Shown: in pieces, positions 6,301 through 34,841 of the stretch
How the letters are laid out: every line of letters begins with the position of its first letter
How positions within the stretch are numbered: the first letter of the stretch is position 1
Source of the DNA: Pseudomonadota bacterium
GTDB lineage: Bacteria > SAR324 > NAC60-12
Direction: 5' to 3'
Length of the DNA stretch: 41,695 nucleotides
Assembly (NCBI GenBank): GCA_004213175.1
Contig: SHAT01000013.1
Span: 1 to 41,695 of the forward strand
Made by a program: the position numbers and the translations under genes
The notes under the pieces: model-generated
What the model saw: the letters and a program-made list of their open reading frames with translations, nothing else
What the model was told of the DNA's origin: nothing
Database searches by the model: none

Positions 6301-7548
6301 AGAGACGGAGGTAAAAGTCCGCTACGTGTTACAAAAAATCAGCGTAGTGCATTTTCAGCAGTTGATACTTTTAAAGTGCAAAACAAGATTCAGGATATCA
6401 ATACAAAACGCGTATTATTTGCAGACGAACAAATGATTTGGGAATTTGCTCTGGGAGACGTGAGTAAATGTTTTGGTTCGGATTTCAATGTCTTCAAAAA
6501 TCGACCGATGCAGCGTAATCCAAATGGAGATTTACAGCTTGTTTCTCGAGTCTATGACCTGAACGGAAAACGAATGGAGTTTGAAAAACCAATGACGATT
6601 GTGAGCGAGTATGATGTCCCTGAAGACGCCTGGTTTTTCCGCGAGAATTCTCACCCAACTCTGATGCCATATTCCGTAATGATGGAAATTGCACTGCAGC
6701 CTTGTGGATTTATTTCTACTCAGTCAGGAGCGATTCTAAACTATCCGGATATTGACCTGCATTATCGAAATCTCGATGGCAATGGGAATTTGCTACATTG
6801 CCCTGATCTGCGTGGTAAAACAATTGTGAATGAGGTAGAGTTGCTTAGTACAGTTGCATCCGGAGATACAATCATTCAAACTCACAGATTTTCTTTGATT
6901 TGTGATGGACAAAAATTCTATGAGGGTGATACTGTATTTGGCTATTTCACTCATGATTCTCTCGCCAATCAGGTTGGATTAGACAGTGGTAAGAAGGTTT
7001 TACCGTGGATCAATGAAAATCCGACCGAAAAATCTATCCTAATTGATCTTAATTCCTCAGAGTTACATCAATTACTGAACGAAAATTCTGAAAAACCTTA
7101 TTTTTATTTATGTGACGGACAACTAAGTTTTTCTGATGTTATCAGACTTGTTCCAGAAGGTGGGAAATACGGAAATGGCTATGCCTATGCCAGAAAAGAA
7201 GTGAATCCTCAAGATTGGTTTTTTCCATGCCATTTTCATGAAGATCCGGTAATGCCTGGCTCACTTGGGCTAGAGGCGATCATACAAACTTTACAAGCTT
7301 TTGCACTTCAGAAAGGACTTGGTGATTCATTCAATAATCCACGATTTTCTCCTGTAAAGAGTAAGGTAGTGTGGAAATACAGAGGACAAATTGTACCACA
7401 AAATAAGTACATGCAATTGGACTTACATGTTAAAAATATTACAAAAAAAGATGGAGAAATTATTATCAGTGCAGATGCAAATTTATGGCGCGAGGATTTG
7501 AGAATTTATGAAATTTCCGACATCGTATTAGGAATTTCTGAAGCTTAA
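385..7548 (+). CDS. PUFA synthase subunit, PfaC/Pfa3-like (KS-CLF-AT-DH)
   Basis: A 2387-residue iterative polyketide/fatty-acid synthase subunit of the omega-3 PUFA (secondary lipid) type. Domains in order: an active ketosynthase at about 1-460 with Cys199 (DAACASS), His335 (CHATGT) and His378 (KSNLGH). A chain-length-factor-like KS follows at about 490-930, where the catalytic Cys is replaced by Glu671 (ISSGENS) and the HATGT His by a FASGN motif, while the third motif (KANLGH) is kept. An acyltransferase-like domain at about 1040-1400 has Ser1145 in GYSMGE. An uncharacterised linker at about 1400-1570 precedes four FabA-like hot-dog units from about 1580 to the end. Units two and four carry catalytic His1866 and His2283 in PCHF-DPVM-GSL contexts. 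Units one and three lack the His but keep the acidic-residue helix (for example E2101). No ACP was seen. Classic marine PfaC (KS-CLF-DH-DH) lacks the AT, so the order resembles myxobacterial Pfa3 without its terminal AGPAT domain. Confidence 0.9.
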   Translation: MQSIAVIGLSCLFPEANTPAEYWQNLLQGKNSCTSATEPILEAEPSRFYANKKGVADKYYCARGGYIHDFRLDADGFLLPAERIEKLGESFQWTIHVAREALRDSGYYENSKILKQCGVVLGNLSFPTKASNHLLLSLYQEALNPLFKNLLDRTDFCLDSFADQKDYAPENANISGLPASIVAQALGLSAHFLALDAACASSLYALALACHYLQSGKTDLMLSGAVSAADPFFVNMGFSIFHAYPKHPETSNPLDNNSGGLFASQGAGMFVLKRLDDANRDGDKIHAVISGIGLSNDGRGQFVLSPNSKGQVLAYERAYDSSNISSDEIDYIECHATGTPLGDKVELDSMELFFADPDTQVGKKTKPLIGSSKSNLGHMLTAAGMGGMTKVILALQNGIIPATVGVEDVMTSKNNGVSADQIVRKNTDWPHKGLKKSAAVSAFGFGGTNAHVVFEAANTGKNSRKSKKQKKAIQKRQTLVAIVGMDAIFGGCNGLHDFYQTIYDNKQHFRKLPPERWKGLEKHPELSKVGEGAWLESFEMDFLRFKLQPNPKEHLIPQQLLALEITDRTIKKTTLREGQNVAVLVAMETELEIHRFRGRVNLATQIEDSLKKSGISLSNEEQKQLIALSRDSLLEEVPINRFTSFIGNIMATRISSLWDFSGPAMTISSGENSVFRALEIAQMLLTEDNVDAVVINAVDLAGSPEKVLLHQRNSPLNSAKATLSFERDVNGWMIGEGAGTVVLKSMKNAKKDGEQIFATLEAVAFANGISADSVEDAGREALKLAKIKPQEVGLLEVFASGNELEDKAEMSGLRSLYSGKNTSCAIGGIKANLGHTFAASGMASLIKAALCLHHRFIPGVPQWTSPKTELLSTNEFYVPVESRPWLIQPGILKRHAAVSGIGQDNVCSHLILSESQAELRQKIEIAESGDLSLFKLIGRDMSNIQKNMVELENDLQTGKDPKALAYRCYEDAKNNNAEFTAVLIGATREEIVKEINAAKSGIENSFSGKGDWSSPKGSYFTAFPLSPEGKVAFTYPGGFSAYVDCGRSLFQMFPGLHDLDEKFLVETGPADKRQGSNYLCDLLQERRLYPRTMERLSNEELDALQENFIQSPISMFESGVSSAVLNTHVMRKGFGLEPQIAFGYSMGEISMLYGLGVWESMSNMSDILNTSKLFSERLAGPMNAVREAWELDENEFRNETLWGCYSIRMSAEEVKKLVDKEAHVYLILINTPEEVVIAGEPSACERVIKKLKSPIHPIPVTDVVHCEPVKTEYQEIRRVHTDRVVERPEIDFYSAIDYGITKLDSKTLSHNIATIYSKTVDYSRLVETVYKDGARIFVDLGPRATCSKWINKILDKRAHLAISVNRKGTDNRAMILQALSSLISHRVPLKLESLFPKNPVQAQKQLPQSIKLGGAPIQQFFEKGSESFSTGSTALWQQGTYLQSRNNSWQGPLEVQNIDTKHHASTNMVSSKSVPEKFTEIDQTSFLSQKEMNIIPEANIYTTETVPSFSPFPGEFGSRRNAAHAAFLTVRQQGLRQFSGIISSMLKQELPIENEKPDLRILNSDPVSPIPQKEDTQIPALFDYQDLLELAGGNISNVFGPEYAEIDSYRRYVRLPMEPYLLVSRVTKIDGKLGEFKPSTITTEYDIPKNAWYTTDGQIPWAVAVESGQCDLMLISYLGIDFQCKGEQVYRLLDCTLTYLDDMPLEGQTLRYEISINSFAKHDQNLLFFFNYECFVGSKMVLRMDSGCAGFFSDEDLAQGRGVLHTAQELELKQNAEKIFFPALLNCQKTSFSRQELLEISNGNPAGCFGPEYNQHGKNLSLKNAPDQFLMSDRVVSVEPHGGAYGLGYIVAEKDLAPDDWYFPCHFKDDPVMAGSLMAEGCVQLLQFFLLHLGLQTLVEDATFQPIHDLPQIVRCRGQVIPGDPKITYNVEVKEIGLEPNPYAIADIDILVGERIVVDFRDLGVQLAEKTLRDGGKSPLRVTKNQRSAFSAVDTFKVQNKIQDINTKRVLFADEQMIWEFALGDVSKCFGSDFNVFKNRPMQRNPNGDLQLVSRVYDLNGKRMEFEKPMTIVSEYDVPEDAWFFRENSHPTLMPYSVMMEIALQPCGFISTQSGAILNYPDIDLHYRNLDGNGNLLHCPDLRGKTIVNEVELLSTVASGDTIIQTHRFSLICDGQKFYEGDTVFGYFTHDSLANQVGLDSGKKVLPWINENPTEKSILIDLNSSELHQLLNENSEKPYFYLCDGQLSFSDVIRLVPEGGKYGNGYAYARKEVNPQDWFFPCHFHEDPVMPGSLGLEAIIQTLQAFALQKGLGDSFNNPRFSPVKSKVVWKYRGQIVPQNKYMQLDLHVKNITKKDGEIIISADANLWREDLRIYEISDIVLGISEA

Positions 7549-10420: not shown

Positions 10421-10473
10421 TCTAAATATAAGGGAACTAGAAGATACTCTTCTTAAAACCAAAGGATTCTTAA

Positions 10474-11091
10474 TCACAATAATGAATTAAGCTGCTTCAG
10501 AAGATGATCAGTATCAATATCATGAGGGACTGTCATACGTAATACCCCGTCGCGGTCAACTAAAATAATATCAGATGAGTGAGAAATCACGTAACCTAGA
10601 GTGGAATCCGGAACAAGTGTTTTTTTGTATTTAACTCCAAATTTTTCTGCCACCTTTTTAAGGACAGAAATTTCGTCTGTAAGTCCTATAATGTTAGGAT
10701 GGAAATATTTTGTATATCGATCAAGCAATTCTAGATTATCTCTCTCAGGATCAAGGCTGATGAAAAGTGCCCGTGTCTCCTGCAACCCAGCTCGAGACAT
10801 CTTTTTGTAGACATTTGCGATAGTTGCTAACGAAATAGGACATACTGTTGGACAGCCTGTGTAACCAAAAAAAATTAATACCACCGAACCACGGAGATCC
10901 TGTAGTGATAAAGGACCTGCAGCTGATTTTAAAGTAAAATCACCTCCTGAGAAGTCTTTTTTCAATGGCTCAGAATTATAATGGGCTGCAGACTTAGAAA
11001 CTAATACAGATGTTAAAAATAAAACTGCAAAAACCAGATAAGACTTTCCAAGTTTAAAAATCAATTTCTTCAAGTACATCATACATGTCAT
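10474..11091 (-). CDS. SCO1/SenC family copper/thiol-redox protein
   Basis: 205 residues with an N-terminal signal or anchor (residues 10-33) followed by a peroxiredoxin/thioredoxin fold. The CX3C copper site is YTGCPTVCP (Cys80, Cys84) and the distal ligand is His171 in YVISHSSD, so all three SCO1 ligands are present. SCO proteins deliver copper to, or reduce, the CuA site of cytochrome oxidase, and some serve as thiol-redox factors. The gene overlaps the preceding DUF302 gene by 38 bases. Met codons 4 and 5 are alternative starts. Confidence 0.88.
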   Translation of the reverse strand: MTCMMYLKKLIFKLGKSYLVFAVLFLTSVLVSKSAAHYNSEPLKKDFSGGDFTLKSAAGPLSLQDLRGSVVLIFFGYTGCPTVCPISLATIANVYKKMSRAGLQETRALFISLDPERDNLELLDRYTKYFHPNIIGLTDEISVLKKVAEKFGVKYKKTLVPDSTLGYVISHSSDIILVDRDGVLRMTVPHDIDTDHLLKQLNSLL

Positions 11092-12277: not shown

Positions 12278-12631
12278 TCATCCCTTAAATTTTACTTTCT
12301 TAGAAGCTTCCCACTTTTTTCCAAAATTATCTATGAAAACAACTTTGATATCAGCCTCTTTAGTCGCCTTTAATTTAAATACAAATAATGGATTGTCGGC
12401 AATACCTGATGCTATCCGCAATCTGCTCACAAGATCTTCACCATAGTAGACCAGCATATTCCTGATAAATGTTACTGGCCTTACCCTATTAAATACAGGT
12501 TCTGAAGTATCATCAGCCATTGCCAGTCCCGTGAATGAAGGATGGTTAAACTTAACCTTAACTTTGATTACTTTATCCTTTTTTATCCTTCTAGAAATCC
12601 TTATGCGCGGAGGTTTTATTTCTTTGGCCAT
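12278..12631 (-). CDS. soxZ: SoxZ, sulfur-compound-chelating partner of SoxY
   Basis: 117 residues, no signal peptide and no cysteine, as usual for SoxZ, which is co-exported with SoxY. Family features: PRIRISRRIKKDKVIKVKV, then FNHPSFTGLAM, the central VTFIRNMLVYYGED strand region and a C-terminal Ig-like strand (FIDNFGKKWEASKKV). SoxYZ carries sulfur intermediates on the SoxY arm in the periplasm. It lies 35 bases downstream of soxB and overlaps the cytochrome's longest frame by 4 bases. soxY and soxZ are usually adjacent, but here soxB separates them. Confidence 0.88.
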   Translation of the reverse strand: MAKEIKPPRIRISRRIKKDKVIKVKVKFNHPSFTGLAMADDTSEPVFNRVRPVTFIRNMLVYYGEDLVSRLRIASGIADNPLFVFKLKATKEADIKVVFIDNFGKKWEASKKVKFKG

Positions 12632-12666
12632 TTTTTTTACAAATAAGATTTTTTAGATTTATATTT

Positions 12667-14283
12667 TTATTCAAAAGCTAATACTTTAATTCTATCGTCT
12701 AACGATGAAGTAATATTTGCTTCCCTCTCAATATAGTTAATTAATTCTTCTACAATCTTCTTCCCTGTATCTTTTACATGAGTCGCCCCAAACAAAGGAT
12801 TATTCTGAAATCTTGAGTGGGCAGAGGAAATTCTGTAAACAGTATCCTCAGAGAATTCTTTACCGCCAACGCTCATTTTAATTATTCTCTTTCCTGTAGG
12901 TTTAGTTATATCACATATAAGTTTCATTCCGGAGAATCTAATCATATCTCCACCAACCCTAGTATAAGGATCTTTATTGACTACAGAACTTATAATATTC
13001 TCAAGTAGATTTCGGAGTTCCTTTCCTCTCATGGAGAAGGTAAATACATGGCCTTGAGTTGGGATTATATTGTAGATATCCTCTTTCGTTATTTCCCCAG
13101 GTAGTAAAGAAGCCCCGAATCTCCACGCAGGGAAAAAAGCTATATCGGTTCTATGGGTTTCCCTCATTACATCAGTTATTAAGTTGCCAAGTGTACTTTG
13201 CCAAAAGTCACGGCGATGCAACAGACTACCAGATTTGCCTATTTTTTTGGAAAGTTCAGATTTATGAGGCCTATATGCTTGTTCTATTAATTTAGAAACT
13301 TTAGGATCAGGCTTAATCCTTTTCTGCATAACCTTATTGAGTCGGTACTCAAAATCAACTACTTTTTTATTTTTTACGTCCAAATCTAAACTAACAACAT
13401 ATTTACCATGAGCTCCCCCCTGAAAAACTATTGTATTATTCCATACTACAGGATCTGCTACCTCATCATGTGTATGTCCACTTAGAAGGACATCAATGCC
13501 ATTAACTCTTTTTGCAAACTTTTGATCAAGACCGAATCCACCATGAGATATTAGAATGACTAAGTCTGGATCTTCTTTTTTTCTGATTTCGGATAATAAC
13601 TCTCTGGCTGCGTCCTCCTTGATTCCAAAATTGTACATTTTGGCAGCACCGGTGGCTGCTGAAGTAAGTGCTGTCCAAGGATATGTAAAGCCGATAACAG
13701 CAATTTTTAATTTCCCAATCTTTCTAATTATATACTGATCAAGAACAGGTTCCTCCCAATCCTTATCAGTAAGATTAAACGCAATTACGGGAAATTTTGC
13801 CGATTCAATCAGATCTAGGAAATGATCATTATTGTAGAAAAACTCCCAATTCCCAGGGACCATTGCATCATAACCAATAGCATTCATAACCTTGACCATG
13901 GAAACTCCTTTATCTAAAAAAGAAATACCACCTCCATGCCAAGTATCACCAGCATCTAGTAACAGATTTTTCCCTGGTTTTTCAGCTCTTAGTTTTTTTA
14001 TCATGGTGGCAACGTACGCCATGCCACCGATTTTACCTTCTATCTTAGCTTTATTAATATAATCACCTTCTCGTGATACCGTCCCCCAAGGTTTAATATC
14101 GTCTAAGTATCTATAATACAAAGGTTTAAGGTACGTGTGTATATCATTAGTAGTTATTATCCTTACACTTTCAGTATCCGCAGCAAATGTAATTTTATCA
14201 AATGTCGAAATACTAATAATTAAGACATATAAAAAAAAAGCACTTAAAAATAGAAAACTTAACCTTTTAAGGCTGCTAAACAC
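12667..14283 (-). CDS. soxB: SoxB, S-sulfosulfanyl-L-cysteine sulfohydrolase
   Basis: 538 residues from GTG 14283. This start follows the soxY stop by one base and is preceded at 8 bases by GGAGG, which itself lies in the last codons of soxY. A TTG at 14304 is a less likely start. SoxB releases sulfate from the SoxY-bound thiosulfate adduct using two metals. Motifs of the 5'-nucleotidase-like metallophosphatase fold: NDIHTY (Asp47, His49), DAGDTWHGG, VPGNWEF, ISHGGFGLDQ and SGHTHD, then the C-terminal nucleotidase-like domain with LGNLITDVMRETH. The leader is an ordinary hydrophobic signal or anchor (residues 8-25) without a twin arginine. Confidence 0.92.
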   Translation of the reverse strand: MFSSLKRLSFLFLSAFFLYVLIISISTFDKITFAADTESVRIITTNDIHTYLKPLYYRYLDDIKPWGTVSREGDYINKAKIEGKIGGMAYVATMIKKLRAEKPGKNLLLDAGDTWHGGGISFLDKGVSMVKVMNAIGYDAMVPGNWEFFYNNDHFLDLIESAKFPVIAFNLTDKDWEEPVLDQYIIRKIGKLKIAVIGFTYPWTALTSAATGAAKMYNFGIKEDAARELLSEIRKKEDPDLVILISHGGFGLDQKFAKRVNGIDVLLSGHTHDEVADPVVWNNTIVFQGGAHGKYVVSLDLDVKNKKVVDFEYRLNKVMQKRIKPDPKVSKLIEQAYRPHKSELSKKIGKSGSLLHRRDFWQSTLGNLITDVMRETHRTDIAFFPAWRFGASLLPGEITKEDIYNIIPTQGHVFTFSMRGKELRNLLENIISSVVNKDPYTRVGGDMIRFSGMKLICDITKPTGKRIIKMSVGGKEFSEDTVYRISSAHSRFQNNPLFGATHVKDTGKKIVEELINYIEREANITSSLDDRIKVLAFE

Positions 14284-14284
14284 T

Positions 14285-14752
14285 TTAGCAACCTCCAGCT
14301 GCAACGCTCACATTTTTAAATGCTGCCCATTTCCCGTGCTGATTACACTCTGTCACTACCCAAACAGTACCATCTCCTCCAGATAATCGGATTTGAGTAC
14401 TTATATAAGCTTCTCCATTATCTGGTGTTAGGTAAAATTTACCCTTTATTACCACTGGATCAGCAAAATTCATAATTTGTATACTTTTTATATAGTGGTC
14501 TTCATCCATTGGGTGGTCAACGCTACAAACTATGGATGCTTGACTCCCATCTTCTACAACTGGGGGTAAAGAAATTTTTGGCACATGCATTTGTTCTAGA
14601 TCTGTCATATTTTCTAAATCTTTTGCAGTTTGAAAAACACCACCATGTGCTACATTTTGACAATTCATTAAAGATAATAAAGGTAATGCGACTCCCCCTA
14701 CCATTGAGTAGTTAAGAAATTTTCTTCTTGTAAAATCTTCTATATTTTTCAT
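14285..14752 (-). CDS. soxY: SoxY-like sulfur carrier with superoxide-reductase-type iron ligands
   Basis: 155 residues with a Tat-type leader (TRRKFLNYSMVGG, residues 8-20) and an Ig-like domain. The C-terminal arm ends exactly in GGC (Cys155), where canonical SoxY ends GGCGG. The body aligns by eye with SoxY (SVDHPMDEDHYIKSIQI against a known SVESPM-DDHVKSIHL pattern). Unlike canonical SoxY it also has every ligand of the desulfoferrodoxin/superoxide reductase centre: His56 in MHVP, His80 and His86 in HPMDEDHYI, and Cys136 and His139 in CNQHGKW. The neighbours soxB and soxZ support a SoxY role; the ligands suggest it may bind iron. AAGGAG precedes the ATG. A desulfoferrodoxin with an appended arm is the alternative reading. 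Confidence 0.82.
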   Translation of the reverse strand: MKNIEDFTRRKFLNYSMVGGVALPLLSLMNCQNVAHGGVFQTAKDLENMTDLEQMHVPKISLPPVVEDGSQASIVCSVDHPMDEDHYIKSIQIMNFADPVVIKGKFYLTPDNGEAYISTQIRLSGGDGTVWVVTECNQHGKWAAFKNVSVAAGGC

Positions 14753-16443: not shown

Positions 16444-17634
16444 TTAAACGATCACCAGCTTCCTAGTTGCTTCGTTCCATGAGACAATTATATACCAAAT
16501 TATCATGAGCAAGCAAATAGAAAAAATACCCATCTTCCATCCTATGAAGTCTGGAATGAAGAGGGTATCTCCTAACTGAGTTGACCAGCCACTTGTACTT
16601 AGCCATTCCCTGAAATAAGATCCAGAGAGAGTAAATGCAATCAATGCCACCCAAAGTTTTATATGACCCTCACCTGCTCGCCACAAAGTACCAGAAGCAC
16701 ATCCTCCTGTTAGAGACATTCCTATGCCAAAAATAGTACCGCCAACCAGACTGCCAAGCCAAAATCCTGCTGATACTTGTGACTCCCAATCCTTCATGTC
16801 TGACCATTTAAGGATTGAAAAACCAACTGTGCTAATTATAACTGCCAAAGCAACTGCTTTAGTTGCGCTCCCATCTCCTGTCATAAATGGTTCACGAAAA
16901 GCTCTAACAAAACAAAATCTTGTTCTTTGCATTATAATTCCTAGAACTAAACCGAAGAAGAGAAAGCCGCCCCTAATAGAGTAATCTAGATTGTCATATA
17001 CTAAAGCTAGCAATATTCCAAGAATTATAATTGATATACCTATTATTGGTTGATTTGTTTTATTTTTGCTGCCAGAAACATTCTTGGATGCTGTAGGTGC
17101 TGGGCTCCAGTATGTTATTTCCCATACTAATATTTTTAACCCTATAAAAGAACCTATAAGTAGCCCCCCCATCATAGCTACACCAGCCATAGACAAAGCA
17201 CTAATAGAACTAAAGAATCCTCCAATATTACAGCCAAAGGACATAGAAGATCCAATTCCCATTAGAACTCCTCCAACTACTGCTTTGTAGAGTTCTCTAC
17301 TAGGTGCATTTCTGATTTGGAATTGTTTGGCTAGAAGTGCTGAAGCTAAAGCGCCTGCAATTATGCCAAAATTTAGTATTGAAGTTGAATAAAGGTGAGG
17401 ATTTATAATTGTGATTTCAGTAATTTCTAGACTGTTAAAAAACCAGTTCCCCCAGTTCCTTACACCATCTGCAACACTCCATGCTTTTTCAAAAGCAAAC
17501 ATAAAGACATTTATAAAACCAAACAAAAGCCCACCTACCCACATCGGCCATTGTTTTTCAAAAAACTTTGCATATCCCGCAGCAAAAACTTCTTTTATAT
17601 TTTCTGGCTCTTTCGTTACTAATGCATCTGCCAT
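16444..17634 (-). CDS. YeeE/YedE (TsuA-like) thiosulfate/sulfur transporter
   Basis: 396 residues with about nine or more hydrophobic segments and the duplicated DUF395 (sulfur transport) pattern. The conserved cysteines of the family are visible: Cys135 in SFGCNIGG, Cys241 in RTRFCF, and Cys312 in TGGCASGTLWRAGEG. TsuA/YeeE members import thiosulfate across the inner membrane through a relay of cysteines, and other members accept different sulfur compounds. It ends 157 bases before the propeller gene. It is preceded on the same strand by the TGA-containing tusA-like gene, and YeeE-TusA pairing is a known arrangement. Uptake of thiosulfate or sulfane sulfur for the Dsr route is the likely role. 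Confidence 0.88.
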   Translation of the reverse strand: MADALVTKEPENIKEVFAAGYAKFFEKQWPMWVGGLLFGFINVFMFAFEKAWSVADGVRNWGNWFFNSLEITEITIINPHLYSTSILNFGIIAGALASALLAKQFQIRNAPSRELYKAVVGGVLMGIGSSMSFGCNIGGFFSSISALSMAGVAMMGGLLIGSFIGLKILVWEITYWSPAPTASKNVSGSKNKTNQPIIGISIIILGILLALVYDNLDYSIRGGFLFFGLVLGIIMQRTRFCFVRAFREPFMTGDGSATKAVALAVIISTVGFSILKWSDMKDWESQVSAGFWLGSLVGGTIFGIGMSLTGGCASGTLWRAGEGHIKLWVALIAFTLSGSYFREWLSTSGWSTQLGDTLFIPDFIGWKMGIFSICLLMIIWYIIVSWNEATRKLVIV

Positions 17635-17718: not shown

Positions 17719-17955
17719 TTATTTTGTACACATAACATAGAAATTCAATTCCCCATTTTGAATCACTATTTGTAGTAATTTATGTCCGGAAGTCCTGCAC
17801 CAGGCCTTTATATCAGACTCCGCTCATGGGTGAGAACTGCTCACTTGTAAAATATCTCCGACAACCAATTTTTTCATAGCCTGCCATGTGCGGATAACTG
17901 GCATACCCATCCCGCAGTCACCAAGTTGGATATTTAATTTGATTTTCATTGACAT
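17719..17955 (-). CDS. TusA-like sulfur carrier with in-frame TGA (candidate selenoprotein)
   Basis: A 79-codon frame (ATG 17955 to TAA 17719) holds one in-frame TGA at 17826-17824 (codon 44). An in-frame TAG two codons before the ATG fixes the start. Before the TGA: KIKLNIQLGDCGMGMPVIRT, then a WQAMKKLVVGDILQV helix-strand. After it: AESDIKAWCRTSGHKLLQ and a last strand. This is the whole TusA fold (beta1, CPxP helix, beta2, GH motif) at normal length. The catalytic site is Cys14 in CGMGMP, a CPxP variant two residues longer. The TGA falls in SSHP-TGA-AESDI; from memory of TusA relatives, Cys can occur at this spot (HPC/HSC-type), which suits Sec insertion. A hairpin follows. Neighbours are dsrE2 upstream and yeeE downstream. 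A nonsense-mutated pseudogene is the alternative, but both sides look fully conserved. Confidence 0.7.
17785..17826 (-). promoter_or_regulatory. Candidate bacterial SECIS hairpin after the in-frame TGA
   Basis: On the minus strand, downstream of the TGA, AAG-G-CCTG, loop GTG, CAGG-A-CTT can form a 7-bp stem with one G-A mismatch (17808-17790). The first loop base is G, 24 bases after the TGA. Published bacterial SECIS rules (loop 3-14 nt, a G among its first two bases, about 16-37 nt from UGA) are met. A competing fold pairs CGGAGTCTG (from 17822) with CAGGACTTCCG (to 17787), with two single-base bulges. Confidence 0.5.
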
Positions 17956-18171: not shown

Positions 18172-18687
18172 TTAAACAAATAACTGGATATCAGAATCAG
18201 AAGCAAATTCCAAAAATGTGGCTGCTCCTCCAAGTTCGACACCTTCGATGAAATCTTCCTTGGTAAAACCAAAAACATCCATCGTCATTTGGCAGCCTAT
18301 CATTCTAACCCCGGATTCTACACAAATTTCGCGCAGTTCTTCAATAGATGCAACACCTTTGTTTTTGAATGTGTCTTTCATCATCGATGTTGCCATAGTT
18401 TCAAATCCAGGAACATTCCCCATTAGAACGTTCGGCATTGGCCACTCAATATTCTGAAAACTTTTTGGTCCAAAAGGCATTTTCATCGGCATAGCAGGAT
18501 TTGCCTGCGGTGCGACTTTTGCCTCGATTTTCTTTTTAAGCAGAGTTAGTCCATAGAAAGTGAAAAATACTCCTACCTCCATTTCCATCGCCACTGCAGT
18601 TGATGCCAAAATAAAAGGTGGATAAGCCCAGTCCAAAGTTCCCTGTGAGGCAATCAGCGCCATTCGTTTAGGTCGCTCTTCACTCAT
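18172..18687 (-). CDS. DsrE2-like (DsrE/DsrF family) sulfurtransferase
   Basis: 171 residues of the DsrE/F/H fold in its longer DsrE2 form. The N-terminal strand and helix read RMALIASQGTLDWAYPP, and a hydrophobic segment covers residues 25-50. The C-terminal signature is GVRMIGCQMTMDVFGF with Cys132, followed by ELGGAATFLEFA. DsrE2 proteins are membrane-associated persulfide carriers commonly encoded with tusA and rhodanese genes in sulfur oxidisers. Here the TGA-containing tusA-like gene follows 216 bases later. AAAGGAG precedes the ATG. A strong hairpin separates the gene from dsrP. Confidence 0.85.
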   Translation of the reverse strand: MSEERPKRMALIASQGTLDWAYPPFILASTAVAMEMEVGVFFTFYGLTLLKKKIEAKVAPQANPAMPMKMPFGPKSFQNIEWPMPNVLMGNVPGFETMATSMMKDTFKNKGVASIEELREICVESGVRMIGCQMTMDVFGFTKEDFIEGVELGGAATFLEFASDSDIQLFV

Positions 18688-18777: not shown

Positions 18778-19929
18778 CTAAGTAGCCTTCTTAACTGCAA
18801 CAGCCACTTTCAGGAGAGCCGTTAAAATTAATAAGCCAATGGCCCATATTCCAAGGGTGACTGTTATTTCAATGAAAGTTGGAAAATATTCTACAACCTC
18901 TTCCATTGGCGAAGGAACAAAACCTCCAATGATTAATCCGATACCTTTATCAATCCAGAGAGAAACAACAATACCGGTGCACGCAGCAATAAGCAATTTT
19001 TTTGAAGGTCTCCTCTGTTGATACAATAGAATCATAACTGACACAATTCCAACTATCATAGAGAACCACATCCATGGTACAAGCTGGTATTTTCCATCAA
19101 GTCCGAAAAACAAATATTCTAGACTGTGTTTGTGTCCCGGAATATTACTATAAAACGCGGTAAAAAACTCAGCTCCCACAAAGAAAAAATTAGCGATACC
19201 TGCGTAGGTCGCTATCGTAGTGAGTTTATGGATTGCTTTTTCGCCCACATCAAAATCCGCAAATTTGCGCAAAATAAAGGATATCAGAATTAGTAAAGCC
19301 GGTCCAACCGCAAATGCTGAAGCTAAAAATCTCGGAGCCAGCACCGCCGTCAGCCAAAGATGTCTCCCAGGAGTCCCAGCATATAGAAATGCTGTGACCG
19401 TGTGTATACTTACTGCCCAGACGATAGAAAGATAAATAATTGGCTTCACCCAGGTTGGAGGAGATACTCCTTTGCGTTCTGCTTCTAAAACAGTCCAGCC
19501 ACTGACAATATTAATTAGTAAATAACCATTCAAAACCTGTACATCCCAAAAAACCATGGATTTCGGATGAGGATACAGTAATACATAAAAAACCCTGGAC
19601 GGGTGTCCCATGTCAGCAATAACAAACAAAAGACAAATAGTAGCCGCAGAAACAGCTAAAAATTCACCGATAATTACAATCTTTCCAAACTCTTTATAAT
19701 CATGAAGATAATATGGCAAAACAACCATCAACGCAGATGCTGCTACTCCTACCAAAAAAGTAAACTGCGCTATGTAAACACCCCAGCTAATATCGCGGCC
19801 CATCCCAGTAACTGTCAACCCATAAGTCAACTGCTGAGAATAGGAATAGACACCCAACGATACTAAAGCCAGTAATATAGTAATCCAGCTCCAATAAAAT
19901 CTATTCCCTGCTAATGCCTTTTCAATCAT
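18778..19929 (-). CDS. dsrP: DsrP, NrfD-family quinone-interacting membrane subunit
   Basis: 383 residues with about ten transmembrane segments, of the NrfD/PsrC family. DsrP is the integral membrane subunit of DsrMKJOP and exchanges electrons with the quinone pool, working with DsrJ and DsrO. Recognisable family stretches: [59 protein letters not shown] and [17 protein letters not shown]. It starts 7 bases after the dsrO stop, in the order J-O-P expected for the complex, so it is clearly in the same operon. Confidence 0.92.
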
Positions 19930-19936
19930 CTGAGCC

Positions 19937-20707
19937 TCAGGTTATATAGAAAACTGAAGGATTTGTCCCCAATTCCGGTTTTCTTGTAATAGTTGGATTC
20001 TCTTTTAAAATTTTTCTGATTTCAGTATTCTTGTCATACAAATTACCAAATGTTAAAACATTTTCTGGGCATTCTTCAACGCAAGCAGGCTGTTGTCCTT
20101 TTGCCAATCGCTCTGAGCAGAAATTACATTTCTCTACTACACCTTTTTCACGTGTTGGATATTCTGGAGTTATGTTTTCAATTGCTGGGCGTGGATCTCT
20201 CCAATTGAAACTCCTGGAACCATAAGGGCAAGCTGACATACAAAAACGACAACCAATGCAGCGGTGAAAGTCCATTTCAACAATTCCATCTTTTCGTTTA
20301 AATGTTGCACCTGTTGGACAAACAATCACGCATGGTGGATCAGCACAATGGTTACACAAAGATAAAAATGGCTTTTGCCGGGTTTCTTCAGACACAAACT
20401 GTTGATCTTTACTGGGGAATACTTTTGCGTAATCACTTTTCCAGATCCATTTTATTTCGTCTTTTGGATTATCGAATTCTGGGACGTTATGCGTAACGTG
20501 ACATACTTCAATACATTTAACGCATCCATCTATACATTTCCGCATGTCAATAACCATCCCCCAGCGGATACTCTTTCCTGAGGCAGCCTTTTCGGTTGAA
20601 GCCTTAGCAAATCCGGTCGCATATTTACTAATAAATCCGGAAACAACTCCCGCTCCAGCTATCAAGCCAGCAGATTTTTTAAGAAATTTTCGCCGGTTCT
20701 GAATCAT
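19937..20707 (-). CDS. dsrO: DsrO, periplasmic ferredoxin-type iron-sulfur subunit
   Basis: 256 residues with a Tat leader ([17 protein letters not shown]). Four cysteine clusters follow: Cys58/62/65/69, Cys118/121/126/130 ([14 protein letters not shown]), Cys150/153/156/160 ([12 protein letters not shown]) and Cys194/197/209/213. The protein can hold several [4Fe-4S] clusters and links haem subunit DsrJ to membrane subunit DsrP. The ATG overlaps the dsrJ stop by 4 bases, indicating translational coupling. Export by Tat of the folded cluster protein is inferred from the leader. Confidence 0.93.
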
Positions 20708-21201
20708 TGTCCCCCTTTATTCAAACTTTGTTTGCTTTCAGCCAAAGGTTTATTCCTCGCCAGTAAATTTTTCAGAAGATTTTGTTTGTTCTCTTCAACA
20801 TCATCAATTCCGGACAATTCGGTATGGCTCCCAATTTTAGGAACTACGTGACACTCCCAGCAATATGGTTTTACGCTGGCAAAGGAGTGACATTCTTCAC
20901 AAAATTTTTCCTTACTAATATGACAATCTAGACAGGTCTTTGTCAGACTTTTTTCAACCTTGCTCCCGTCAGGCATAATATGAAAACGATCTCCATCTCT
21001 TACCACTGAATCACGCCATATATCGAGCAATTTCATATGATTCTTCCTCATGTATTCGACCGGCGCGACACATTCTTCTCCTTTGGTCTGCATAGCAATT
21101 TGTGGTATATCTTCATCTTCAGTGCTTTGCCAGAAAGGATATGAGAATGCCAGCAAAAAAACCGCTAGCCCTGCAAAAATAAGGGGTTTTTCATTCATCA
21201 T
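20704..21201 (-). CDS. dsrJ: DsrJ, triheme cytochrome c subunit
   Basis: 165 residues counted from ATG 21201 (tandem ATGs at 21201 and 21198, and a TTG at 21228 extends upstream). An uncleaved signal anchor is followed by three haem motifs: CLDCH (90-94), CEECH (101-105) and CWECH (114-118). Cys44 in [16 protein letters not shown] matches the conserved Cys proposed as an unusual axial haem ligand in DsrJ, and the following [13 protein letters not shown] block is also typical. The 5' end overlaps the dsrK stop and the 3' end overlaps the dsrO ATG by 4 bases. Confidence 0.93.
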
Positions 21202-22849
21202 ACTCCCGCGAGGTACTTTCCGAATCAAGATCCTCCATTTCGTCCTCTCTCAAGTCCTCTGTACGTTCATCTTCACCTTCCATAACTAGAGCATTCCCGA
21301 CCAATTCATGAAGTCCATAAACAGAAACTCCAGGATTCCAGTAATTCATTAAAGGCGGAAGACTTGCACGATCAATAGCGCAGATCGCTACGAGAGCATT
21401 GACATCATATTTTTCTTTCACATGCTTAACTGCACTTGCTCGTGGGAATCCTCCTCGCATTCTGACATCCATGTATTCATCTGTATTAAGACCACTTCCT
21501 GAACCGCAGCAAAAAGTTTCTTCACGAATAGTATGATCTGGCATTTCATTAAAATTGTTGCAGACATTTCTCAAGACATAACGAGGTTCTTCCATCATCC
21601 CCATACCTCGGGCGATATTGCATGAGTCGTGGAATGTTGTTTTCAAATGATCATTCCGTCTCGGATCAAGTTTGAGTTTCCCTTGATGAATCAAGTCTGC
21701 TGTAAACTCTGCGATATGAACCATTTTAGTTGACGTTGCATTACGGAATTTTGTTCCGGTAATTGGGGAAACTGGCTCTTCAAGGAAATCTGCCGGACCG
21801 TTCATAGTGTCCATATACTGATGAACAACTCGCCACATGTGACCACACTCTCCACCTAATATCCATTTTACCCCTAAACGTTCCGCTTCGTGAAACATTT
21901 TTGCATTTATTTTTTTCATCGACTGATTTGACGAGAACAATCCAAAATTTCCACCTTCAGAAGCATAGGTACTAAGTGTGTAATCCAATCCTATATGCTC
22001 AAACAGCATCATATAACCCATCATTGTGTAAATCCCTGGGTCTCCAAAAACATCACCAGACGGAGTGATAAAGAGAATTTCAGCACCCTTACGGTTAAAG
22101 GAGGGATTGACAGTTACACCAGTTTGATCTTCAATATCTTCTGCCAAAGATTCAACTACGTTTTTATAGGTATGCGGTTCAATACCTAAATGGTTGCCTG
22201 TACGATTACAGTTTGAGGCTGGTTCTGAAATCCAGTTGATATTAGTTCCTGCCAAATTGAGCAGTTCACGACCCATCAATGTGACTTCAGCTGTATCAAT
22301 ACCAAATGGACAATAGACAGAGCAGCGGCGACACTCGGTACACTGATGAAAATACATGAACCATTCCTTTAGCACCTCCTCTGAAAGAGGTCTTGCTCCT
22401 ACAAGCCCTTTAAAAATTTTACCTGACCAGGTAAATTCGTGTCGATAGACTGAGCGCATCAACTCCTGTCTTACAACTGGCATATTTTTTGGGTCACCAC
22501 TGCCTAAAAAAAAATGGCATTTATCAGCACAAGCCCCACATCTAACACAAATGTCCATAAATAGTTTGAAAGAACGAAATTTGTCTAAACGTTCCTTCAT
22601 TCCGTTTTTGACTTTTTTTTGCCAACCTTCCTCCAGTTGCCAGTCTTCATCTTCAGGGCTCCATTTCCTTGGATTGTTGAAACCTAGATCTTCAATCACA
22701 TTCGGCTTTGCGGCATGACACCAATTCCCGTCACGGAATTCTACTGGAATATCCAGCCACTCTTTGCCCGGGCTGTCGCCTTTTAGAAGACTAGGCTCCT
22801 GCTCATACTCCAACTGGAGTTCAGCTAATTTAGGTGGGTTTGTTGTCAT
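21191..22849 (-). CDS. dsrK: DsrK, HdrD-like catalytic iron-sulfur subunit
   Basis: 552 residues. Two ferredoxin motifs: Cys101/104/107/111 (CVRCGACADKC) and Cys170/173/176/180 (CTECRRCSVYCP). The heterodisulfide-reductase-like CCG part contains HDSCNIARGMG and ETFCCGSGSG, where a noncubane or special [4Fe-4S] centre is bound. DsrK is the cytoplasmic subunit thought to act on the DsrC trisulfide or disulfide and to pass electrons to DsrM. The ATG overlaps the dsrM stop by 4 bases and the 3' end overlaps the dsrJ start. The acidic, hydrophilic C-terminal tail (residues 530-552) looks lineage-specific. Confidence 0.94.
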   Translation of the reverse strand: MTTNPPKLAELQLEYEQEPSLLKGDSPGKEWLDIPVEFRDGNWCHAAKPNVIEDLGFNNPRKWSPEDEDWQLEEGWQKKVKNGMKERLDKFRSFKLFMDICVRCGACADKCHFFLGSGDPKNMPVVRQELMRSVYRHEFTWSGKIFKGLVGARPLSEEVLKEWFMYFHQCTECRRCSVYCPFGIDTAEVTLMGRELLNLAGTNINWISEPASNCNRTGNHLGIEPHTYKNVVESLAEDIEDQTGVTVNPSFNRKGAEILFITPSGDVFGDPGIYTMMGYMMLFEHIGLDYTLSTYASEGGNFGLFSSNQSMKKINAKMFHEAERLGVKWILGGECGHMWRVVHQYMDTMNGPADFLEEPVSPITGTKFRNATSTKMVHIAEFTADLIHQGKLKLDPRRNDHLKTTFHDSCNIARGMGMMEEPRYVLRNVCNNFNEMPDHTIREETFCCGSGSGLNTDEYMDVRMRGGFPRASAVKHVKEKYDVNALVAICAIDRASLPPLMNYWNPGVSVYGLHELVGNALVMEGEDERTEDLREDEMEDLDSESTSREYDE

Positions 22850-23859
22850 ATTTTTTCCTTTTCTGAGGGTAGAGAAAATTCAGTAGGTATATCTGCTTTG
22901 ACCATTTTTTCACGGAATTCATCTTCATATTCTGCATATGTCCGATATTGTACTTCCGGATTCCAGGGATTGATGTGACGCTTTTCTCGGCTGTTATTGG
23001 CTAAGTTACGTGTAGGGCTAAGAAATATTCCACCCATATGCATCAGTTTGCTAAACGGGAAATAACTTATGAGTACGCAAACGAGGAATAGATGCACATA
23101 AAACATTCCTCCTATTCCTCCCGGGGCATCAAATTGAAAACTGACAAGACCCTGAACTAAGACCTTGATTGCCACGACATCAACTTTGTCCAGATAACGC
23201 ATACTGATTCCGCTCAGAGCAATTGCTAAAATCAAAAAAAGCGGAAAATAATCTGTGGACAGGGAAATAATCCTCATTTGTGCGCTGGCTAATCTCCGTA
23301 ACACTAAAAAAGTGACCGAGATAACCAAAAGCAAATCCGTGATATAAAGTGTCGGCAGTGTAATTTGCAAGAAACCGTCAACACTTTCAAGGAATTCAAC
23401 AAAACCCGGAACACCTGCTAAAAAAAAACGGTAATGCCTGAGCACAATCACCAAAAGAGACCAGTGGAATATAAGCCCTGCCATCCAAAGCCACTTACTG
23501 GATGAATAAGCGAGGCTGGGACCCGGAACTAGTTCTGCTTTTGTATTACGGAACAATGAGCGAAAAAACAAAACTTCCAGTGACATCCTGCCGAAAACAC
23601 CCCAAAATCCTGATGGACTTTCCAGTTCATCACGCTTGATCCATTCTAAAGACTTCGCCTGTCCACAAGTAGTAGGGATACGAAAAGGTACTGGTGATTT
23701 TACCCAATCATAAATCTTCCAGATGAAACCTCCTAGGAATAAAATCACTGACACATATGGGATGATAACCCCAAACAAATATTCCAAACCTATGGCGACA
23801 CCGAGATAAGCTACTAAGGCCAAAAGCAAGACCGCAACAAGAGGATAGATAACCTTCAT
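22846..23859 (-). CDS. dsrM: DsrM, NarI-like cytochrome b membrane subunit
   Basis: 337 residues with about six hydrophobic segments (roughly 4-24, 30-45, 123-143, 170-190, 205-225, 255-275) and histidines in them suitable as haem b ligands (HWSLLVIVLRHYRFF; GGMFYVHLF). DsrM is the quinone-reactive haem b subunit paired with DsrK. The loop at 60-110 (VPFRIPTTCGQAKSLEWIK) and the MHMGGIFLSPTRN motif near the end are typical. The ATG overlaps the preceding RsbRD-N gene by 4 bases and its stop overlaps the dsrK ATG. Confidence 0.92.
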   Translation of the reverse strand: MKVIYPLVAVLLLALVAYLGVAIGLEYLFGVIIPYVSVILFLGGFIWKIYDWVKSPVPFRIPTTCGQAKSLEWIKRDELESPSGFWGVFGRMSLEVLFFRSLFRNTKAELVPGPSLAYSSSKWLWMAGLIFHWSLLVIVLRHYRFFLAGVPGFVEFLESVDGFLQITLPTLYITDLLLVISVTFLVLRRLASAQMRIISLSTDYFPLFLILAIALSGISMRYLDKVDVVAIKVLVQGLVSFQFDAPGGIGGMFYVHLFLVCVLISYFPFSKLMHMGGIFLSPTRNLANNSREKRHINPWNPEVQYRTYAEYEDEFREKMVKADIPTEFSLPSEKEKI

Positions 23860-24347
23860 ATCCCTGCCTTCTTCAACAACATAAACGCTTTGTTTTTACT
23901 TTCATCAACTTTAAGTTGATAGATTTTTTCTCGGTGAGCACTGTAACAATCAAATGCCTCAAGTGTCATAGTCTCAATAGCTGAATTAAACTCCACCCAG
24001 TCTTTTGCATTAAAACCAACCCCCGTTTTTTTTGTAAATTCCCGAACAATTTCCTTTAACTCATAAAAAAGTGCCATCGCTTTTGATGGTGGGAAATCCT
24101 GAATCGCGAGTATCCTGCATATCTGCTCCAGCGCCTCTTTAAATTTTTCACCTTTTTTTTCAAAATTTTCCAAAATATCTTTCAATCCTTCTTGTAACTG
24201 GTGACGTATTGGGTTTTGGAATTGGTCCTTTTGCGTCATGATTAAAGACTGTTTTTGCTTTGAAAAAAACGATAACCTGAGGCTCAGCCACTTTTCAAGA
24301 ATCTGATCCTGATTTTTTGTTATCAGTATATTTAGGGTATTACTCAT
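23856..24347 (-). CDS. RsbRD N-terminal domain protein (dsrM-linked)
   Basis: 163 residues from ATG 24347. A longer frame to 24428 would overlap the upstream gene and adds 27 unrelated residues. The helical sequence, with FQNPIRHQLQEGLKDILENF and ICRILAIQDFPPSKAMALF, matches the RsbRD N-terminal domain pattern (I-RI-A-QDF-PS-A). In known genomes a protein of this family precedes dsrMKJOP in many sulfate reducers; its function is unknown. It may be a sensor or assembly factor. It overlaps dsrM by 4 bases, so it is made with the complex. Confidence 0.75.
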   Translation of the reverse strand: MSNTLNILITKNQDQILEKWLSLRLSFFSKQKQSLIMTQKDQFQNPIRHQLQEGLKDILENFEKKGEKFKEALEQICRILAIQDFPPSKAMALFYELKEIVREFTKKTGVGFNAKDWVEFNSAIETMTLEAFDCYSAHREKIYQLKVDESKNKAFMLLKKAGI

Positions 24348-24390
24348 TACTCGTATTCTAAGCAACAATAGGGTAAGCGACAGTTCAACA

Positions 24391-25518
24391 TCATGCCGCC
24401 CTCTTAAAACGTTCTGCTGCCTTTCCACTGGACAGTATTTTACGGACAGAAACTGCTGCCGATTCGACTGAACTAAAACGTTCCAAATGCCATAGTGTCA
24501 AAGAAGCGCTAAAAAGCAATGCGTCACTAGTAGCACTGCTCGAACCCTGTAGTGCCGCGAGCCCTTCTTTTGCGGATAGTTTTGCAATTTCACGGTTGTT
24601 TTTATCAGGTCCAAAATCCCCATCTTTTTCAGGGAGGAGAGCTGGTGGAATTTTTACCAGTCGATTTTCAGATTCAATACCAATTTCATTTGGATCTGCT
24701 TCTACAATCATGTCTTGGCTATCTTCCCAATAACGCACAAATTCTCCTCTTTTACGTAAAGAAGGAGTAACACCACCTTCTGTACCGCGCAGTAAAAGTG
24801 TAGAACTGAATCCTGAATGACGTGCTAACATTGTGTAAATTGGTGGATATTCATTATGTACATAACCACTCAGAAGATGTGTTTTTTTACGGCCTCTTAT
24901 TGGACCAGTTAAAACCTCTGCCGTGGAAATAGCCGCGCGTTTTACAATCCTTTTTCTAAAATTCGTCAGCCCATAAAGACTTGGACAAAATGAACTTTGA
25001 TCCGCATAAGCCCATCCGATGTCTGGATTACTAATTTGTTTTCCAATTTCCTCTACAGTAAGATTTACAGACACTCCTGCAGCAGCTAAGATCTGACTAT
25101 GAGTCACCCCAAATTTAGGAGCCACTGTTTCAATTCCGTGAGAAACTGCAGGAACTCCAGACTCGGCGAGCAAAGCTGCTAAAAATGGAGATGATGGAAG
25201 GCTGCGAGCATAACCGTTGTACGGGTCGGCAATGTCCACTAATTCATCCACATCGGCTTCAATGATTTTCGTTCTATCCAGTATGGCCTGTAGTACGCCT
25301 TTATTTTCATCATCCGTTTCACGTTTCACTCGCAAACCAATCAAAAACACTGCAGCCTGAATCGGGTCAGCCAGTTCATCCAAAACAAGCAACATTCCGG
25401 CACGTGCTTCATCGTAAGAAATACTCTTGCTGAGTTCTGGCCCAGTGGCAACGCGCTTTATGATAGACGTCATCGTCTTTTCAGGATTAACGAGTAAGTC
25501 TTCTAAAGTATCTGTCAT
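24391..25518 (-). CDS. TrpD-like (anthranilate phosphoribosyltransferase fold) protein in the dsr run
   Basis: 375 residues with the glycosyltransferase-family-3 layout: a helical N-terminal domain (ISYDEARAGMLLVLDELADPIQ-type) then the alpha/beta domain. Compared with TrpD, the PRPP-binding GTGGD loop is replaced by DPYNGYARSLPSS (residues 98-110), and the KHGNR-type motif by SHGIETVAPKFGV (126-138). The usual PRPP/anthranilate chemistry is therefore doubtful. It resembles TrpD2/YbiB-type paralogues more than biosynthetic TrpD. No trp genes are nearby. It lies 210 bases after dsrH, behind a perfect inverted repeat, and leads into rsbRD-dsrMKJOP. The function is unknown. Confidence 0.7.
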   Translation of the reverse strand: MTDTLEDLLVNPEKTMTSIIKRVATGPELSKSISYDEARAGMLLVLDELADPIQAAVFLIGLRVKRETDDENKGVLQAILDRTKIIEADVDELVDIADPYNGYARSLPSSPFLAALLAESGVPAVSHGIETVAPKFGVTHSQILAAAGVSVNLTVEEIGKQISNPDIGWAYADQSSFCPSLYGLTNFRKRIVKRAAISTAEVLTGPIRGRKKTHLLSGYVHNEYPPIYTMLARHSGFSSTLLLRGTEGGVTPSLRKRGEFVRYWEDSQDMIVEADPNEIGIESENRLVKIPPALLPEKDGDFGPDKNNREIAKLSAKEGLAALQGSSSATSDALLFSASLTLWHLERFSSVESAAVSVRKILSSGKAAERFKRAA

Positions 25519-25728: not shown

Positions 25729-26022
25729 TCAAAGCCAACTGTTAACCTGGTGATCCTCCACCAGTTCCACAAAACCTTCATACCCAATAGACTTTACACC
25801 AGCCGTTATTTCTGAAATACCCCTCGCATTGAGATCCGGACCAAGAGCATACACCGGATTATTTTTAAGAATATCTCTTAAGGTGTTAGAAAATTTATTA
25901 TTAGCCTGTACTGCGTATACGCCGTCTTCGATAAAAAGAATTGGATCTCCAGGTTGAAAGAACCGTGAAGATGTTTCAAAACTATTGTTTGCAAATGGGG
26001 ATTTATTAATTGTATTTAACAT
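25729..26022 (-). CDS. dsrH: DsrH (TusB-like) subunit, lacking the usual Cys
   Basis: 97 residues matching DsrH: NTINKSPFANNSFETSSRFF, ILFIEDGVYA, VYALGPDLNARGIS, and a C-terminal NSWL. DsrH forms the DsrE2F2H2 hexamer that receives persulfide sulfur and passes it towards DsrC. The usual SLESC-type Cys (Cys20 in Allochromatium) is replaced by Ser here, and the protein has no Cys at all. Sulfur transfer in this complex would therefore rest on DsrE Cys78. It follows dsrF by 31 bases. Confidence 0.9.
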   Translation of the reverse strand: MLNTINKSPFANNSFETSSRFFQPGDPILFIEDGVYAVQANNKFSNTLRDILKNNPVYALGPDLNARGISEITAGVKSIGYEGFVELVEDHQVNSWL

Positions 26023-26053
26023 TTTAAAACATTATATGAATTACAAAATATAT

Positions 26054-26437
26054 TTAATGATGAACCACAAGATCTTGTTCGGCCATCAATTTTCCTATTT
26101 CAGCAGAATTTAAAACTTCCACATCTACTACCAAATCATCCTCGTTAAGACCTCGTTCTTCCAAAGATATTTGATCAACGTATAATTTTTCTACATCATA
26201 ACCATCTAGTGCTCCAAAAGTTTTAGCGAATCCTTTAATTTCAATGTCTTCAGTATTTTGACCTTTTTTGAGAGCATAAACTCCGTCATCAATAAACGCG
26301 ACGGAAATATCCTGATCGTAAGCAGCCATAATCAAAATCATTTCCAAACCTTCATATGTGTAAATAGTCCCATGAGGAGCTTCGCGCATGACGTGCATTA
26401 TTTTTTTAACTATTTCATCATCTTCAAATTCTTCCAT
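26054..26437 (-). CDS. dsrF: DsrF (TusC-like) subunit of the DsrEFH sulfur relay
   Basis: 127 residues from ATG 26437, with GGAG nine bases upstream. The longer frame begins at a TTG (26452) and would overlap dsrE. Features: YEGLEMILIMAAYDQDISVAF, FIDDGVYAL and the acidic C-terminus common in DsrF. There is no Cys. Its role is structural, in the cytoplasmic hexamer with DsrE and DsrH. The immediate neighbours are dsrE upstream and dsrH downstream, the conserved E-F-H order. Confidence 0.9.
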   Translation of the reverse strand: MEEFEDDEIVKKIMHVMREAPHGTIYTYEGLEMILIMAAYDQDISVAFIDDGVYALKKGQNTEDIEIKGFAKTFGALDGYDVEKLYVDQISLEERGLNEDDLVVDVEVLNSAEIGKLMAEQDLVVHH

Positions 26438-26441
26438 TTTA

Positions 26442-26801
26442 TTAATCTCCAAAGGTTATCAGTCTGTCATTCCTAATGGCAATATCAGTCAGGTTGCCTA
26501 GTCCAGTAATCGTTCCGCAATCAATTAGTACATCATCATTGATTCCACGGCGTTTTGCTGCTGCAACACATGCTAAAATCTGCACACCATGCTTTTGACA
26601 TAAATTTTTCCAACGGTCAGCAATATGCCGGTCATCCTGAGGCGGGTCCATTAGTTTAGTAGCATTTATTACTCCGTCATTGTAAAAAAACACAGCGTCA
26701 ATCGTATGCCCTTTTTTGATCGCGGCCTCAGCGAATTTGAAGGCAGTATCGGCCGCCTGATGATTATATGGACCTTCTTTGAGTAGTATTCCAATATTCA
26801 T
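26442..26801 (-). CDS. dsrE: DsrE (TusD-like) persulfide carrier
   Basis: 119 residues: GILLKEGPYNHQAADTAFKFA, AVFFYNDGVINATKL, and the active-site strand ILACVAAAKRRG. Cys78 is at the same residue number as the sulfur-binding Cys known from Allochromatium DsrE. In sulfur oxidisers DsrE passes sulfur from TusA to DsrC. DsrE with this Cys is a marker for the oxidative Dsr pathway. It is followed by dsrF with 4 bases between. Confidence 0.93.
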   Translation of the reverse strand: MNIGILLKEGPYNHQAADTAFKFAEAAIKKGHTIDAVFFYNDGVINATKLMDPPQDDRHIADRWKNLCQKHGVQILACVAAAKRRGINDDVLIDCGTITGLGNLTDIAIRNDRLITFGD

Positions 26802-34610: not shown

Positions 34611-34841
34611 TTACTTTTTCTTAATAATAAATGTATGAACTCCGCCGTCTTCAGCGTGTGAAACTAACTCATTCCCGGTACGCTTTGACCAGGAATCCAT
34701 GTCATTTACTGAGCCAGGGTCAGTTGCACTCATTTTCAGTAGTTGACCAGTGCTCATACCATCAATAGCTTTTTTGGTTTTTAAAATAGGTAGGGGGCAA
34801 TTTAGGCCTTCACAATTTAACTCAGTATCAAAATCACTCAT
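34611..34841 (-). CDS. tusA: TusA, canonical sulfur-transfer protein
   Basis: 76 residues with the normal CPxP motif: LNCEGLNCPLPILKTKKAI with catalytic Cys15. The ATDPGSVNDMDSWSKRTGNEL stretch and a C-terminal basic tail follow. In sulfur oxidisers TusA passes sulfane sulfur to DsrE. It differs clearly from the second, TGA-containing tusA-like gene at 17719-17955, which has CGMGMP instead. AGAGGAAAG precedes the ATG. dsrN follows 145 bases downstream on the same strand. Confidence 0.92.
   Translation of the reverse strand: MSDFDTELNCEGLNCPLPILKTKKAIDGMSTGQLLKMSATDPGSVNDMDSWSKRTGNELVSHAEDGGVHTFIIKKK

Follow-up and report, generated by a model that had tools for sequence, protein, structure and literature searches.

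A small gene in the sulfur-oxidation locus of a SAR324 bacterium is best explained, in a reading that we hold with moderate confidence, as encoding a sulfur carrier of the TusA family in which an in-frame UGA at codon 44 would be translated as selenocysteine (Sec) and would act as a relocated reactive centre. Judged from the sequences, the UGA is almost certainly decoded as Sec by SelA, SelB, SelD and tRNA-Sec under the direction of a hairpin, and deep-sea bacteria of SAR324 as well as the Neomarinimicrobiota very probably use Sec, at a new place and instead of the usual catalytic cysteine, as the reactive residue of a small sulfur-carrying protein. Family membership, conservation of the Sec codon, the hairpin and gene context are established by sequence comparison. 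The preliminary description of this DNA had proposed a Sec-containing TusA-like protein within a dsr/sox locus, a proposal now strongly supported by the conserved TGA, by selection, by the hairpin and by the presence of selA, selB and selD.

The gene and its sulfur locus

On the minus strand of the window (the whole stretch of 41,695 nucleotides that was analysed; Table 1), the frame of this gene, running from 17955 to 17719, reads MSMKIKLNIQLGDCGMGMPVIRTWQAMKKLVVGDILQVSSSHP-TGA-AESDIKAWCRTSGHKLLQIVIQNGELNFYVMCTK-TAA; the plus strand of the same interval holds no open frame. Read through the TGA, the protein matches the Pfam TusA family (PF01206) at 52.8 bits (cut-off 28.6). The full-length frame of 78 residues, interrupted once by TGA at codon 44, its coordinates and its placement between dsrE2 and a YeeE transporter were all given correctly in the preliminary description, which did not name the strand; its designation of Cys14 as the catalytic CPxP cysteine did not survive alignment, as set out below.

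Around the gene, DsrO, DsrJ, DsrK and DsrM exceed their NCBIfam cut-offs, DsrP is of the NrfD type, and the YeeE/YedE-type protein scores below the cut-offs of the NCBIfam YeeE/YedE models. The presence of dsrH, dsrF and dsrE identifies the window's dsr set as the oxidative type, for which DsrEFH is the customary marker. Among the downstream Sox-like genes, Pfam SoxY was matched over cut-off; the SoxY-like protein (14285-14752, minus strand) also matches desulfoferrodoxin (PF01880, 44 bits). A canonical tusA paralogue, too short for the list of open reading frames of 80 aa, was found at G000:C5:34629-34805 (G000 being the genome of the window). The sulfur locus is adjoined by an open reading frame of 2387 aa (385-7548, plus strand) that looks to be of the polyketide synthase type.

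Table 1 Features of the window and of its genome (positions are those of the window unless a contig is named).
Feature	Position	Strand	Details
Sec tusA-like gene	17719..17955	-	78 codons; TAA stop 17719-17721; readthrough of one TGA
Codon 44, TGA taken as Sec	17824..17826	-	Sole in-frame stop
Cys14 codon (TGC), CGMGMP motif	17914..17916	-	Invariant in 21-row alignment
SECIS-like hairpin, intragenic (putative)	17790..17808	-	Apical loop GUG 17798-17800; loop start 24 nt past TGA
dsrE2, sulfur carrier gene directly upstream	18172..18687	-	NF047629, 221.9 bits (cut-off 210)
YeeE/YedE-type sulfur transporter, directly downstream	16444..17634	-	PF04143, 198.4 bits
dsrP, dsrO, dsrJ, dsrK, dsrM and neighbours, upstream of dsrE2	18778..25518	-	
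dsrH, dsrF, dsrE	25729..26801	-	TIGR03010, TIGR03011, TIGR03012 over cut-off
SoxZ-, SoxB-, SoxY-like genes, downstream	12278..14752	-	Best matches are Sox models, below equivalog cut-offs
Canonical tusA paralogue	34611..34841	-	CPLP; Gly at Sec position; 76 aa
selA	G000:C33:981-2285		Profile match
selB	G000:C34:49335-51218		Profile match
selD	G000:C23:27184-28107		Profile match

Conservation of the TGA and selection across it

When 245 Neomarinimicrobiota genomes were searched with a profile, the intact copies in that phylum rose to 17, which, with those of five SAR324-type genomes, make 22 intact orthologous copies (47-95% identical). The TGA stands at exactly codon 44 in all 22, across two phyla and independent assemblies, as alignment of homologues at this codon had been expected to show if Sec were encoded; on this alignment, its conservation is far beyond chance. 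The orthologues in three genomes of the same genus (G003, G004 and G014) are 74-87% identical and have the TGA at codon 44, and scanning a genome collection added one SAR324-like metagenome-assembled genome and three Candidatus Neomarinimicrobiota genomes, each with the TGA at the same codon. That scan was limited to two patterns, LG[DA]CG[MI]GM and TWQAMKK, and we therefore do not claim that the family is absent from other phyla; a search of viral contigs with the family alignments returned no relatives. Seventeen columns of a 21-row alignment are invariant, including those of Cys14, His42, the Sec codon, Asp48 and Trp52.

Glycine in homologues, listed in the preliminary description as evidence against Sec, does occur at position 44, in paralogues only; in none of the intact orthologues is codon 44 a sense codon. 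Cysteine-containing homologues are a usual supporting sign for selenoproteins but are not required; 52 SAR324-phylum and 245 Neomarinimicrobiota genomes yielded no orthologue with Cys at the Sec site.

Between pairs of SAR324 sequences, the mean proportion of nonsynonymous differences was 0.048 before the TGA and 0.132 after it, far below the synonymous values of 0.571 and 0.653 (twelve hairpin codons left out), with synonymous change down to 0.156 in those twelve codons; the Neomarinimicrobiota groups showed the same pattern. By this measure, the stretch after the TGA is translated and under purifying selection. TGA terminates 11 of the 32 window genes checked, which indicates a standard genetic code, and an altered code was rejected since TGA still serves there as a stop.

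Decayed copies, recognised by frameshifts, TAA codons or a lost Cys14, occur in G001, G005, G016, G240, G248 and G290; the TGA is in register in most of them, with Ser at this position in G248. Because copies have decayed in some relatives, the gene is dispensable. In the decayed copies of G001 (L044), G005 (L043) and G016 (L039, approximately 10430-10665), the C-terminal half and the TGA outlast the N-terminal half, and yeeE still adjoins the decayed gene in G001 and G005.

A SECIS-like hairpin and the selenocysteine machinery

A hairpin was found just 3′ of the UGA, where a bacterial SECIS element is expected, in each of the 26 genes that carry the TGA (mean z −2.4 relative to synonymous recodings made with local codon usage), and in 2 of 43 canonical TusA control genes at that place (mean z +0.21; Fisher P = 5e-17 for 26/26 versus 2/43, with genes treated as independent); its role as a SECIS element is predicted computationally. 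The core is CUG-GUG/GGU/GGC-CAG, and the first loop base is G in 26/26 genes. Codon use within the hairpin is constrained: in intact genes of the kind found in the window (type 1), Ala51 is GCC throughout (GCC makes up 13% of Ala codons in SAR324 and 28% in the Neomarinimicrobiota), Arg54 is AGR throughout, and the wobble positions of codons 50 and 55 form one pair that occurs in five complementary types (CG, GC, GU, UA and AU). Covariation in the hairpin lay above all 500 shuffles, although related sequences can yield the same result without structure; because kinship alone can mimic covariation, we place the main weight on the paralogue control.

The helix is short (7-8 bp), with most single sequences only modestly better than their synonymous recodings. 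A first fold of the 57 nt past the TGA gave inconsistent global structures with z near 0, and the hairpin that is conserved is short and local, becoming visible only when orthologues are compared. Rfam SECIS_1 (RF00031) had no match in the window's genome, where controls were also unmatched, and at E values up to 10 no SECIS family was returned for either the gene or the SelD control. A comparable hairpin, with a GGUC loop, is present in the selD gene of the same genome.

All four genes of the Sec pathway had been suggested as a search target in the same genome, and selA, selB and selD were recovered (SelA 508 bits, SelB 380 bits and SelD 363 bits, each over cut-off); for selC, no tRNA-Sec over cut-off was found in this genome, which is 83% complete. 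The selD gene contains one TGA of its own, and its product (L124) is itself a selenoprotein, with a stem carrying the GGUC loop. In eight genomes of the same genus, including the carriers G003, G004 and G014, tRNA-Sec was detected over cut-off. SelB was present in all three Neomarinimicrobiota carriers tested, and SelA in 16 of the 17 Neomarinimicrobiota carriers versus 159 of 228 non-carriers (P = 0.02, uncorrected for kinship), with no SelA match listed for the carrier G325.

Sec44 and the loss of the CPxP cysteine

To place Sec44 within the TusA fold, the protein was aligned without gaps to canonical TusA, E. coli TusA and E. coli YeeD (the stretch of E. coli TusA matches its PDB sequence). 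A functional TusA sulfurtransferase is recognised by a CPxP motif with its catalytic Cys; here Met16 occupies that Cys position (MGMP), and Cys14 lies two residues N-terminal to it. Sec44 aligns with Ala47 of E. coli TusA and with a Gly of canonical TusA (Gly in 41 of 43 canonical CPxP sequences), so Sec would not have replaced a Cys. His42 aligns with Asp45 of E. coli TusA and Asp48 with Asp51; in E. coli YeeD the counterpart of His42 is Cys39, which places that Cys two residues ahead of Sec44. An AlphaFold model (pLDDT 84.5) has the beta-alpha-beta-alpha-beta-beta fold of TusA, with helix 2 running from residue 44, and its nearest structures are the YeeE-YeeD and IscS-TusA complexes (TM 0.84-0.85 to the TusA of 3lvj).

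In E. coli TusA, Asp45 hydrogen-bonds the NH of Cys19 and Asp51 lies 4.2 Å from the Cys19 sulfur (PMC2854127); since these residues surround Cys19, Sec44 is expected next to the normal active site. Near helix 2 of E. coli YeeD there is a second cysteine, Cys39, that is functional (PMC11073785). With the CPxP cysteine replaced by Met16, Sec44 would be the relocated main reactive centre rather than a second centre added to the first: located at the start of helix 2, it probably stands in for the catalytic cysteine, perhaps with Cys14 as its partner. The preliminary description had interpreted these residues differently. It expected Cys at codon 44 in some TusA relatives, an expectation that fails, the nearest precedent being Cys39 of YeeD; it regarded Cys14 as the retained catalytic residue, which the alignment contradicts; and it saw in Sec a second redox centre, where a moved main centre now seems the better reading.

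Gene context and a second, divergent type

Across genomes, the gene occurs in three recurring arrangements, co-directional throughout. In SAR324 the order is dsrP-dsrE2-gene-yeeE, with yeeE beside the gene in the rDsr loci wherever the contig reaches. Seven Neomarinimicrobiota have arsR-tusA-dsrE2-gene followed by a rhodanese/metallo-beta-lactamase fusion (and, in L050 and L051, then by Fe-S/NrfD and molybdopterin subunits), and about ten have Hdr-like-gene-etfB-etfA (joined in L049 by a GcvH-like, lipoate-binding protein and a lipoate ligase); the decayed copy of SAR324 G016 is also found in an Hdr-like/etfBA setting. No yeeE stands directly beside the gene in the Neomarinimicrobiota loci. 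As far as gene content indicates, all of these contexts look like modules for sulfane-sulfur relay or oxidation.

Five genomes of another SAR324 family (G031, G032, G034, G037 and G040; L082-L086) encode a second candidate selenoprotein, with divergent TusA-like domains (type 2) that have a TGA at the same site (DPU, mostly then AVKDIPIW) and no Cys in the TusA domain; the TGA is followed, as far away as in type 1, by a 7-bp hairpin that is perfect or nearly so. These proteins have an N-terminal lead and a basic C-terminal tail. In a profile comparison, types 1 and 2 were aligned with a probability of 97; no Pfam match was obtained for the one type 2 stretch scanned, the coordinates of which differ from those of the final domain frame, so that this result carries little weight. 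A tree groups types 1 and 2 apart from canonical TusA (96/87), a grouping on which we do not rely because it rests on few columns, a very long type 2 branch and a midpoint root.

Proposed mechanism and alternative explanations

In the mechanism that we consider reasonably probable, the Sec44 selenolate would be loaded with sulfane or thiosulfate-derived sulfur by DsrE2, by the YeeE transporter or by a rhodanese, and would hold this sulfur as a selenium-bound persulfide. Cys14 would then resolve the persulfide, via a Cys14-Sec44 selenenylsulfide, or the sulfur would pass straight to the oxidising machinery, which would be DsrEFH/DsrC in rDsr cells and a lipoate-binding protein/sHdr in others. 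Sec insertion, the selenium–sulfur intermediate, Cys14 as the resolving residue and the direction of transfer are steps that we infer. For the family as a whole, we incline to the view that the TusA active site has moved, with the Cys at the start of helix 1 lost and Sec placed at the start of helix 2, yielding a selenium-bound persulfide carrier in at least three kinds of operon and two phyla, along with a second, Cys-free type in other SAR324.

A decaying pseudogene, a nonsense mutation or a sequencing or assembly error at 17824-17826 would equally present a single in-frame stop, the Gly of canonical homologues is one substitution away (GGA to TGA), and genuinely decayed copies do exist in the genomes named above. 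However, those copies look different (frameshifts, TAA, Cys14 gone), and with the TGA common to 22 intact copies from independent assemblies in two phyla, and purifying selection 3′ of it, we regard this explanation as extremely improbable. Also very improbable, if slightly less so, is recoding of the UGA as something other than Sec, or a leaky stop that yields a 43-residue product and some readthrough: the tRNA-Sec not found in the 83%-complete genome would fit such a reading, but SelA, SelB and SelD are present, a hairpin with G as its first loop base in 26/26 genes sits at SECIS distance, the residues past the TGA complete the TusA fold, and SelA is found in 16/17 carriers against 159/228 others (P = 0.02 before any correction for kinship).

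If Sec is inserted, the protein may still be a real selenoprotein with a redox function (reduction of peroxides, thiols or persulfides) or a part in selenium handling, rather than a sulfur carrier. We consider this possible, though on the whole unlikely. Most known selenoproteins are oxidoreductases (PMC13188914), YedF-type TusA proteins are tied to selenium metabolism (PMC5322559), and Cys14 could serve as the redox partner of Sec44; yet every context seen is a dissimilatory sulfur-oxidation module (dsrE2, yeeE, rhodanese, sHdr-like or EtfBA), and type 2 has no Cys in its TusA domain with which Sec could pair, both of which speak against this alternative.

Relation to known systems and implications

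The closest described proteins share much with this one and differ at the reactive residues. E. coli TusA/YhhP (PF01206) has the same fold and length, aligns without gaps, has the equivalent of Asp48 in Asp51 and works beside DsrE proteins, whereas here Met16 stands for the CPxP Cys, His42 for Asp45, and Sec at the Ala47/Gly site. YeeD/TsuB (PMC11073785) likewise has the TusA fold, provides the top structure match as YeeE-YeeD, corresponds to the yeeE neighbourhood in SAR324 and, in E. coli, has a second Cys (Cys39) near helix 2; unlike the present protein, with its Met16, YeeD relies on the CPxP Cys, its second Cys aligns with His42, and the Neomarinimicrobiota genes are without an adjoining yeeE. 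The TusA-DsrE2/DsrE3 clusters of sulfur oxidisers resemble the loci described here in placing dsrE-tusA beside Hdr-like or Dsr genes; their TusA acts through Cys18, with no Sec reported (PMC4175335). DsrE-like, rhodanese-like and YeeE/YedE-type proteins have been predicted as selenoproteins of sulfur metabolism (PMC13188914, Table 1), and thus also place Sec in sulfur relay or transport, but belong to other protein families.

No TusA/SirA entry is found among the 119 prokaryotic selenoprotein families inventoried in May 2026 (PMC13188914), the GOS selenoproteome and a 2022 review, within the open literature and published annotation, contain no TusA-type selenoprotein, and NCBIfam (June 2026) has no model over cut-off for the Sec TusA-like protein. 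Where 'SirA-like' proteins were linked to selenium before, the subject was YedF in its capacity as a selenium-trait gene rather than as a protein containing Sec (PMC5322559). What we describe looks like an undescribed selenoprotein family within bacterial sulfur-oxidation operons, and an unusual case in that Sec is found where relatives have Gly, not Cys. Because annotation pipelines stop at TGA, Sec TusA proteins have likely been missed in sulfur oxidisers of the dark ocean. If our reading is true, a selenium-based sulfur carrier would move sulfane sulfur by a new kind of chemistry, and selenium supply would be tied to sulfur oxidation in SAR324 and the Neomarinimicrobiota.
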